From NCBI RefSeq assembly GCF_036240795.1, contig NZ_CP108454.1, positions 4,278,001-4,342,000 on the forward strand: a stretch of DNA of 64,000 bases. The letters run 5' to 3'. The notes under the pieces were generated by a model. The model ran no database searches and had not been told where the DNA came from. It saw only the letters and a list, made by a program, of their open reading frames with translations. Each line of letters begins with the position of its first letter. The first letter of the stretch is position 1. Shown here in pieces: positions 5,021 through 31,395 of this stretch. A program made the position numbers and the translations under genes. This DNA is from Streptomyces sp. NBC_01268 (GTDB lineage Bacteria > Actinomycetota > Actinomycetes > Streptomycetales > Streptomycetaceae).

Positions 5021-5451
5021 GCCGTCCCGTCCCCGCCGAGGTCCGCCCCGCCGGCCTCGTCGATCTGCCGGATGACCACCGGGTAGACCGGCGAGCCGAC
5101 GGGGCCGGGGCACTGTGCCACCCGGGCCGCGATCTCGGTCACCCGGTCCAGGCTCGCGCAGTCGAGCACCCAGTACCCGGCGAGCACCTCCTTCGTCTCC
5201 CCGTACGGGCCGTCGGTGACGACCGGCCGGCCCTCCTCGTCGGCCGTCACGAAGCGGGTCCTGGCCGGCTCGACCAGGCCCTGCGCGTCGACGAGCTCGC
5301 CCGACTCGGACAGGTCGTCGCTGACCGCGTTCATGTAGGCGAACATCGCCCTGAGCTCCTGCTCGCTCCAGGCCGGGCTGCGGTCGCTCGCCGTCCCCTT
5401 CATGGCCTCGTAGTCGGCCTGGGCGCCCTGCACCATCACCAGGTACTTCAT
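5017..5451 (-). CDS. DGPF/YCII-related protein, ECF42 partner
   Basis: A 144-residue protein of the YCII/DGPF family. The eponymous motif reads DGPYGETKEVLAGYWVLD (about residues 83-100), and the start MKYLVMVQG is characteristic. The biochemical role of DGPF proteins is unknown, but they are the standard genomic partners and targets of ECF42 sigma factors. The ATG has GAGGAG 5 nt upstream. The stop overlaps the TTG of the sigma gene, so both form one transcript, likely driven by the ECF42-type promoter at 5522-5548. Confidence 0.92.
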   Translation of the reverse strand: MKYLVMVQGAQADYEAMKGTASDRSPAWSEQELRAMFAYMNAVSDDLSESGELVDAQGLVEPARTRFVTADEEGRPVVTDGPYGETKEVLAGYWVLDCASLDRVTEIAARVAQCPGPVGSPVYPVVIRQIDEAGGADLGGDGTA

Positions 5452-30480: not shown

Positions 30481-30556
30481 TGGAGCGGACGACGAGATTC
30501 GAACTCGCGACCCTCACCTTGGCAAGGTGATGCTCTACCAACTGAGCCACGTCCGC
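30481..30556 (-). tRNA. tRNA-Gly(GCC), CCA encoded
   Basis: Acceptor GCGGACG/CGTCCGC, D loop AGTTGGTA, anticodon loop with GCC, T loop GTTCGAATC, discriminator U followed by an encoded CCA. Confidence 0.97.
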
Positions 30557-30723: not shown

Positions 30724-30796
30724 AGCGGACGACGAGATTCGAACTCGCGACCCTCACCTTGGCAAGGTGATGCTCTACCAACTGAGCCACGTCCGC
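30724..30796 (-). tRNA. tRNA-Gly(GCC), second copy
   Basis: All 73 nt are identical to the tRNA at 30484-30556, but this copy lacks an encoded CCA (CAG follows the discriminator). Confidence 0.97.
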
Positions 30797-30876: not shown

Positions 30877-30948
30877 AGCGGGTGACAGGGATTGCACACT
30901 GCGCCTTCCCCCTGGAAGGGGGCTGTTCTGCTACTGAACTACACCCGC
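30877..30948 (-). tRNA. tRNA-Gly(UCC), non-canonical D and T loops
   Basis: Acceptor GCGGGTG/CACCCGC, D stem GTTC/GAAC and anticodon loop CTTCCAG (UCC) define a glycine tRNA. The 7-nt D loop AGTAGCA lacks the G18-G19 pair. The T loop reads G-TGCAATC-C instead of G-TTCRANN-C, and the T stem closes only if one U is bulged (GCAG-u-G with C-CTGT). The top anticodon pair is G-A. No CCA is encoded. Whether this tRNA works on ribosomes is open; see findings. Confidence 0.8.
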
Positions 30949-31050
30949 ACGCTGCTTGAGGTCCGGGGCCTTTCGGCCTCGCCCCTCGGCGTGTTCCAGA
31001 CTCTAGCGGATCATGGGGGGTGGGATGCAAATCCGGGGTCGGACCCCGTG

Positions 31051-31395
31051 TCAGCTCGCGGCGCGGAAGGCCTCGTAGACCCGCTTCGGGATGCGGCCCC
31101 GGGCGGGCACGTCCATCTTGTTGGACTGCGCCCAGGCGCGGACCGCCGCCGGGTCGGGGGCGAGCGCGGTGTGCTTGAAGCCGCCTTCGGGCAGCGTCCG
31201 CGGGGCGCCGGCGGACCGGCCGCTCAGCTTGCGGCCCGCGGCCAGGTAGGGCGCGAGCGCCTTGCGCAGTTTCTTTGCATTGGCGGGATTCAGGTCGATC
31301 TCGTACATCTTCCCGTCCAGGCCGAACGCCACTGTTTCCGCCGCTACTCCGCCGTCGATGTCGTCGGAGAGAGTGACCACCACACGCTGAGCCAC
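31051..31395 (-). CDS. lsrL: Lsr2-family nucleoid-associated protein
   Basis: A 114-residue H-NS-like xenogeneic silencer. The N-terminal oligomerisation domain starts AQRVVVTLSDDIDGGVAAETVAFGLDGK. The C-terminal DNA-binding domain is AVRAWAQSNKMDVPARGRIPKRVYEAFRAA, with the R-G-R minor-groove hook. GTG start with AGGAAAGGACC upstream. The neighbourhood (purS divergent) is, from memory, that of LsrL, the shorter-studied Lsr2 paralogue of Streptomyces, rather than Lsr2 itself. Its own upstream region is AT-richer than average, a likely autoregulatory target. Confidence 0.92.
   Translation of the reverse strand: MAQRVVVTLSDDIDGGVAAETVAFGLDGKMYEIDLNPANAKKLRKALAPYLAAGRKLSGRSAGAPRTLPEGGFKHTALAPDPAAVRAWAQSNKMDVPARGRIPKRVYEAFRAAS

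Follow-up and report, generated by a model that had tools for sequence, protein, structure and literature searches.

An Altered Elbow and a Bulged T Stem in a Second tRNA-Gly(UCC) of Streptomycetaceae, a Possible Glycine Donor for Cell-Wall Synthesis

Introduction

Does the unusual tRNA-like gene with anticodon UCC that lies beside two tRNA-Gly(GCC) genes in Streptomyces sp. NBC_01268 serve translation, the cell wall or another process, or is it a gene in decay? The question was raised by a preliminary description of this DNA, which saw a tRNA-Gly that had lost both halves of the contact between the D and T loops and proposed it as a glycine donor for peptidoglycan. Non-proteinogenic tRNA-Gly of staphylococci feed peptidoglycan bridges (Giannouli et al. 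2009, as cited in PMC4052509), and in most instances, according to PMC4052509, the diversion of aminoacyl-tRNA from translation into wall synthesis is somewhat unclear. Streptomyces coelicolor carries a single-glycine wall branch made by FemX, with VanK acting on precursors made under vancomycin (PMC4790382).

Materials and Methods

The window, that is the whole stretch of DNA analyzed, comprises 64,000 nucleotides (contig NZ_CP108454.1, positions 4,278,001 to 4,342,000), and four- and five-digit positions of features in it are counted from its first letter. tRNA genes were called with ARAGORN and scored with the Rfam tRNA model RF00005, and a covariance model of the variant gene (R1) was built from 23 sequences, the window's own copy included. 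Homologs within the genus were located by BLAST using the gene plus 20 bases on each side, and the letters were read in 69 of the 121 genus genomes (the 30 best and 39 weaker ones). Altogether 147 distinct places with 55 distinct sequences were collected, a few genomes being possibly counted twice where flank lengths differ; 145 copies were counted by position, with L234 (71 nt) and L237 (bulge shifted) left out. D-loop positions were numbered by column comparison with AATGGTA, the 7-nt D loop that the canonical UCC and CCC glycine tRNAs of the same genome share. Alternative secondary structures were compared using RNAfold. A tree was constructed by a quick method from PurS, the PurQ-like protein, the N-terminus of PurL and the Lsr2-like protein (44 of 85 rows usable) and was rooted by choice on the Yinghuangia and g99 groups.

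Results

The gene and its surroundings

A 72-nt tRNA-like gene with anticodon UCC and no encoded CCA occupies exactly positions 30877 to 30948 on the reverse strand, where the preliminary description had placed it, and the two neighboring genes (30724 to 30796 and 30484 to 30556, same strand) are canonical tRNA-Gly(GCC) genes that were called by ARAGORN and scored 71.8 bits each with the Rfam model. The UCC gene scored 43.5 bits with RF00005 (E-value 1.1e-6 in 12 kb) and 98.1 bits with R1, and it was not reported when ARAGORN was run on the window.

The sequence folds into a cloverleaf with the acceptor stem GCGGGTG/CACCCGC and U73. The D stem (GTTC/GAAC) closes the D loop AGTAGCA (30929 to 30935), which is numbered A14 G15 U16 A18 G19 C20 A21, with A18 at 30932 and G19 at 30931. 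The anticodon arm is intact, with U33 and a purine at position 37, and consists of the stem GCCCC/GGGGA, which has a G-A mismatch at 27-43 in the window copy, and the loop CTTCCAG with the anticodon at 30914 to 30916. The variable region AGGC is followed by the T stem GCAG(T)G/CCTGT, in which the bracketed letter is a one-nucleotide U bulge between T-stem positions 52 and 53 (30898), and in which A51 (30900) pairs with U63 (30887) in place of the G51-C63 of canonical tRNA-Gly. The T loop TGCAATC (30890 to 30896) reads U54 G55 C56 A57 A58 U59 C60, with G55 at 30895 and C56 at 30894, so that the GTGC motif and the bulge are both present as first described. The recurrence of the bulge and the altered loops in the homologs read (five basal copies keep G18 and U55) indicates that they are not a sequencing error.

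Upstream of the gene lies a putative promoter of its own, with a -10 box TAGAGT (31000 to 31005) and a -35 box TTGCAT (31025 to 31030) separated by a 19-nt spacer, followed by an lsr2-like gene (31051 to 31395; PF11774, 95.3 bits; PF23359, 58.9 bits), which marks the same site in relatives; all of these are on the reverse strand. The other neighbors encode PurS, a GATase_5 (PurQ-like) protein and SAICAR synthetase, and no partner gene linked to the variant tRNA was found among the locus neighbors.

The tRNA set of the genome

The preliminary description had made its reading depend on the presence of another UCC glycine tRNA in the genome and on the conservation of the loop changes in close relatives. 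The first was found at position 2846238 of the genome, where a canonical tRNA-Gly(UCC) scored 71.6 bits, which makes the variant the second UCC gene. The glycine set is completed by a canonical tRNA-Gly(CCC) at 3935627 and three tRNA-Gly(GCC) genes, one at 1669088 and the two beside the variant. The canonical Gly(UCC) is 71 nt long without CCA, as against 72 nt for the variant, and has G18-U55, a T stem of five unbulged pairs and G51-C63.

The genome holds 69 tRNA places, and the DNA was compared for 63 of them, the other six being 84-87 nt long. GTTCRA stands near the 3' end in 51 of 51 distinct tRNAs called by ARAGORN, and GG is present in the D-loop region of 50 of these, the exception being a bldA-type tRNA-Leu(UAA) (L049:121-203). 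Elsewhere in the genome a weak tRNA-like gene (L047:1174-1250; G000:C1:5924175; 41.1 bits) was called as tRNA-Ala(GGC), while canonical Ala(GGC) genes occur at other places. It stands about 80 bases after what we take to be an agmatine-deiminase-like ORF and before a presumably TetR-like one, and no phage match was found for it.

Conservation within the genus

Each of the 121 genus genomes yielded a homolog of the variant gene, and the genus copies read keep the loop changes, which was the second point on which the preliminary description depended. The mean pairwise ungapped identity over 68 genus loci is 0.924 for the gene, as against 0.395 for the 100 bases upstream and 0.334 downstream, so the gene does not drift like its surroundings. 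Stem pairs are standard in 99.4% of cells in 23 chosen sequences, compared with 51-56% when the pairing is slid, and five stem pairs show changes on both sides in the same set; these sequences are related, and shuffle counts on them are not to be read as probabilities. The T-arm pattern was present in 40 of 40 genus genomes of the class draw.

Two or three variant copies occur in 8 of the 121 genus genomes, and the odd loops recur in each of those copies that was read. A second match in G022, by comparison, has 71 nt and a canonical score. One genome (G120) carries two variant copies 4.1 kb apart on opposite strands (L081:926-997, reverse, and 5089-5160, forward), and a Gly(GCC) gene adjoins only the second of these.

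Among 68 genus loci, 61 have a -10-like box of the form CTA[GAC][AT]GT in the 160 bases that precede the gene, mostly at a distance of 56-59 bases, and TTG[CG] lies farther upstream of it in 60 of the 68. The box is missing in the remaining seven (L087, L089, L094, L098, L103, L104, and L105), five of which hold several copies.

The elbow and the T stem

The contact between the D and T loops is only partly lost. Positions 18 and 55 are A and G in 140 and G and U in 5 of the 145 copies, never mixed, while G19-C56 is intact by sequence in all 145 and G15-C48 is kept in 144. Of the two halves that the preliminary description regarded as lost, G18-U55 has indeed been replaced by A18-G55, but G19-C56 stands; likewise its D loop without G18-G19 lacks only G18, now A, and retains G19 when aligned with the canonical loop. 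Judged from these kept pairs, the elbow may be nearly normal. It is not the canonical elongator elbow with G18G19, GUUC and an unbulged T stem, given A18, G55 and the bulge.

The T-stem bulge is present in every one of the 145 copies (U in 143, C in 2), as is A51-U63, and C50-G64 is invariant or nearly so. The 49-65 pair is G-U in 135 copies, the window copy among them, and A-U in 10, all from Streptacidiphilus; G-U is the strong form of this pair. The G18-U55 copies are L224, L305, and L306 from Yinghuangia (g96) and L229 and L230 from g99, which is probably Embleya. Since the bulge and A51-U63 are found in all copies, including those of the early-branching Yinghuangia and g99 with G18-U55, they probably arose first and were followed by the paired elbow swap from G18-U55 to A18-G55.

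Elsewhere in the molecule, G1-C72, C2-G71, C35, C36 and U73 are unchanged in all 145 copies, and the anticodon UCC, U33 and A37 are invariant. Changes fall on both partners of a pair at 3-70 (A-U instead of G-C in 16 copies), 11-24 (U-A in 70, C-G in 75) and 32-38; the last is C-G in 78 and U-A in 67 copies, the two positions changing together throughout, and is C-A in the canonical Gly(UCC). The two copies left out of the counts differ in length or register: L234 (G426), a 71-nt copy of the variant, is shorter by one base between the anticodon and T stems and has a U6-G66 wobble, and in L237 the bulge is shifted by one base, with the 5' strand of the T stem still pairing with the 3' strand.

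Distribution in the family and the class

Within the family, 90 of the 121 genomes sampled over 17 genera have the variant at 86 bits or more with R1. The 31 genomes without it comprise 27 of g108, 3 of g105 and 1 of g110, and from locus identity we infer that g108 is Kitasatospora and g105 Peterkaempfera. The g110 genome without it (G384) may lack the variant through an assembly gap, because the pair of adjoining GCC genes was not found there either. A scan of 66 named loci gave 23 in which the variant scored at least 87 bits (Streptacidiphilus, Actinacidiphila, Streptantibioticus, Wenjunlia, Yinghuangia, some Streptomyces-labeled strains and one MAG) and 43 without it: 40 from Kitasatospora or close strains labeled otherwise (among which the loci L257 and L276 stop shortly past the first GCC gene), 2 Peterkaempfera-like and 1 Nocardia. 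One Kitasatospora and one Peterkaempfera locus were read base by base, and in both the lsr2-like gene is directly followed by the two GCC tRNAs. Five genomes from these two genera, all lacking the variant, have the complete canonical glycine set (UCC, CCC and three GCC).

Several records labeled Streptomyces or, in one case, Saccharothrix (L245, L250, L253, L257, L265 and others) have a Kitasatospora-like locus, with 89-90% Lsr2-like identity and no variant tRNA; their labels may be out of date.

The tree needs three presence/absence changes, or two by the starred branches, and since Kitasatospora appears paraphyletic in it, it was not used for counting losses. The outgroup rows have the tRNA, which favors loss rather than gain as the explanation of the absences. 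An origin from a phage or plasmid was also considered and was rejected, with no phage match and one weak plasmid match, in Methylibium.

Searched with R1, all 24 genus genomes of the class sample scored 97-105 bits, and none of 222 genomes from 94 other genera of the class reached 74 bits (best, 73.6 bits), under strict filters below which a weak or very different analog could hide among canonical tRNA scores; among the matches listed in those 222 genomes the length was the canonical 71 nt. The T-arm pattern, with at most one mismatch, matched 3 of 354 non-genus genomes, and at these three places no tRNA was found by ARAGORN or Rfam (best R1 score, 18.2 bits).

Discussion

Possible functions of the variant tRNA

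Across most of the Streptomycetaceae sampled the gene is under strong selection, and from its sequence record the variant looks like a functional tRNA-Gly(UCC), second to the canonical one and with a dedicated role. What such a tRNA would do is a matter of graded likelihood. Tentatively, and at somewhat short of an even chance, we favor a glycine donor that partly evades EF-Tu and feeds FemX, as the staphylococcal cell-wall tRNAs do in their host. Glycyl-tRNA synthetase would charge the variant, EF-Tu or the ribosome would use it less readily on account of the altered T stem and elbow, and part of the Gly-tRNA would stay free for a Fem-type transferase (FemX, and VanK where present), whose use of it would yield the single glycine branch on peptidoglycan precursors. 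The bacterial glycine identity elements are G1-C72, C2-G71, U73, C35 and C36 (PMC9976931), and because none of these varies among the copies counted, the known identity set is kept. Weak pairs at A49-U65 and A51-U63 are said to let the cell-wall tRNAs of S. aureus escape EF-Tu (PMC4052509), and the second of these is a constant feature of the variant. This genome carries FemAB (PF02388), as do 120 of the 121 genomes of the family.

The genomic distribution of the transferase does not follow that of the tRNA. All 30 sampled genomes of Kitasatospora (g108) and Peterkaempfera (g105) have FemAB without the variant, which FemX therefore does not require, and FemAB (E-value at most 0.001) occurs in 88 of the 222 non-genus genomes of the class, in none of which the variant reached 74 bits. 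Co-distribution with FemAB was therefore rejected as proof of a donor role, FemAB being frequent without the variant tRNA. Wall chemistry is no better a guide to the absences: Kitasatospora and Streptacidiphilus are both held to differ from Streptomyces in having DL- and LL-diaminopimelic acid in whole-organism hydrolysates (PMC6113628), but Streptacidiphilus loci keep the variant, so this difference does not explain the loss. The donor role put forward in the preliminary description thus has on its side A51-U63, the retained glycine identity elements and the occurrence of FemAB, and against it the genomes with FemAB and no variant, together with a loop change that differs from the staphylococcal one.

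The features that the variant has kept would also suit a decoding tRNA, which counts against a donor role. A specialized tRNA-Gly of this kind, which we consider rather unlikely, would translate GGA and GGG with its altered elbow, perhaps more slowly or under growth-phase control like bldA. The invariant UCC, U33 and A37 agree with decoding, as does G49-U65 where it is kept, and the intact G19-C56 is the elbow pair contacted by ribosomal protein L5 (PMC4810234). The bldA-type tRNA of the same genome decodes without GG in its D loop, which again speaks for decoding and against the donor. On the other hand, these codons are already read by the canonical Gly(UCC) and Gly(CCC), also in the five genomes without the variant, and in a decoding tRNA a T-stem bulge kept by every copy counted would not easily be put down to neutral change.

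We regard it as unlikely that the tRNA is a glycine donor or signal for some other non-ribosomal process, be it a Fem-like or other tRNA-dependent enzyme, a stress sensor or a regulator that competes for GlyRS. The absence of the variant from Kitasatospora and Peterkaempfera despite their FemAB would fit such a role, and in many genus genomes the FemAB matches are too numerous for a single protein. The locus, however, offers no linked partner among its lsr2-like, PurS, GATase_5 (PurQ-like) and SAICAR synthetase neighbors, and a route through a T-box finds no support, with a single T-box-like match (L319; G000:C1:2274810-2275045) of 53.5 bits, below the cut-off of 93.

Very improbably, the 3' half of the A18-G55 copies might instead form another hairpin (GCGC-AGU-GUGC) and make the molecule a tRNA-like RNA without a T arm. 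RNAfold places this hairpin 1.4-5.7 kcal/mol below the cloverleaf in 48 of 49 distinct A18-G55 sequences (1.4-2.9 in 47 of them), and 1.4-6.1 kcal/mol above it in the five distinct G18-U55 sequences, where one or two pairs are missing. RNAfold ignores tertiary contacts and modifications, and we weighed this result lightly because it does not recover the cloverleaf of the canonical Gly(UCC) either. The invariant CCUGU on the 3' side of the T stem has no use in the hairpin, and it pairs with the 5' strand even in L237.

Decay of the gene, which the preliminary description had kept as its alternative and to which the low Rfam score and the silence of ARAGORN might point, is ruled out for the genus by a gene identity of 0.924 against 0.33-0.40 in the flanks, the covarying stems and the presence in all 121 genus genomes.

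Returning to the cell-wall donor, its likeness to the staphylococcal tRNA-Gly would have a separate origin, in which the bulge came first and the A18-G55 swap second. That Streptomycetaceae evolved a dedicated, non-translational cell-wall tRNA-Gly separately, through the bulge and A51-U63, then A18-G55, and then the loss in Kitasatospora and Peterkaempfera, is possible, though we advance it slightly more tentatively than the donor role itself. A search of the literature, limited to the titles and abstracts listed and covering few subscription papers, found no report of the variant tRNA, which is weak evidence of novelty.

Should the donor role be true, the variant would build the elbow of a bacterial tRNA in a new way and would be a hidden contributor to wall synthesis in Streptomyces, a genetically tractable genus with known branch enzymes. 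Natural controls are at hand in the genera without it, Kitasatospora and Peterkaempfera, and in the basal copies with G18-U55. The gene, which ARAGORN misses, also shows cleanly how the two partners of a tRNA elbow pair can change jointly.

Comparison with known systems

The variant resembles the canonical bacterial tRNA-Gly(UCC) in its acceptor stem, U73, anticodon and glycine identity and differs from it in the absence of G18-U55, the bulged T stem and A51-U63 for G51-C63. The bldA tRNA-Leu(UAA) of Streptomyces, which serves the rare codon UUA (PMC4932002), is likewise a special-purpose tRNA, found in the same genome and with an odd D loop without GG. Its T loop, unlike that of the variant, has the normal GTTC.

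Non-proteinogenic tRNA-Gly of Staphylococcus have the anticodon UCC and GUGC in the T loop. As in Staphylococcus, the variant is an extra tRNA-Gly beside the decoding set, in a host where Fem transferases bring glycine into the wall. Position 18 is changed in both, and of the two weak EF-Tu pairs named in PMC4052509 the variant has A51-U63 throughout and A49-U65 in the 10 Streptacidiphilus copies, the window copy not being among them. The preliminary description had equated the two double changes. This does not hold against the published description, in which GG at 18-19 becomes UU or CU (PMC4052509): the variant replaces G18 in 140 of 145 copies and keeps G19 in all, and it has in addition, compared with that description, a conserved T-stem bulge and mostly G-U at 49-65. 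Staphylococcus and Streptomyces belong, moreover, to different phyla. Because 18 and 19 were examined for a joint replacement and only 18 was found replaced, the variant is not filed as a member of the staphylococcal group, though it would work alike if the donor role holds.
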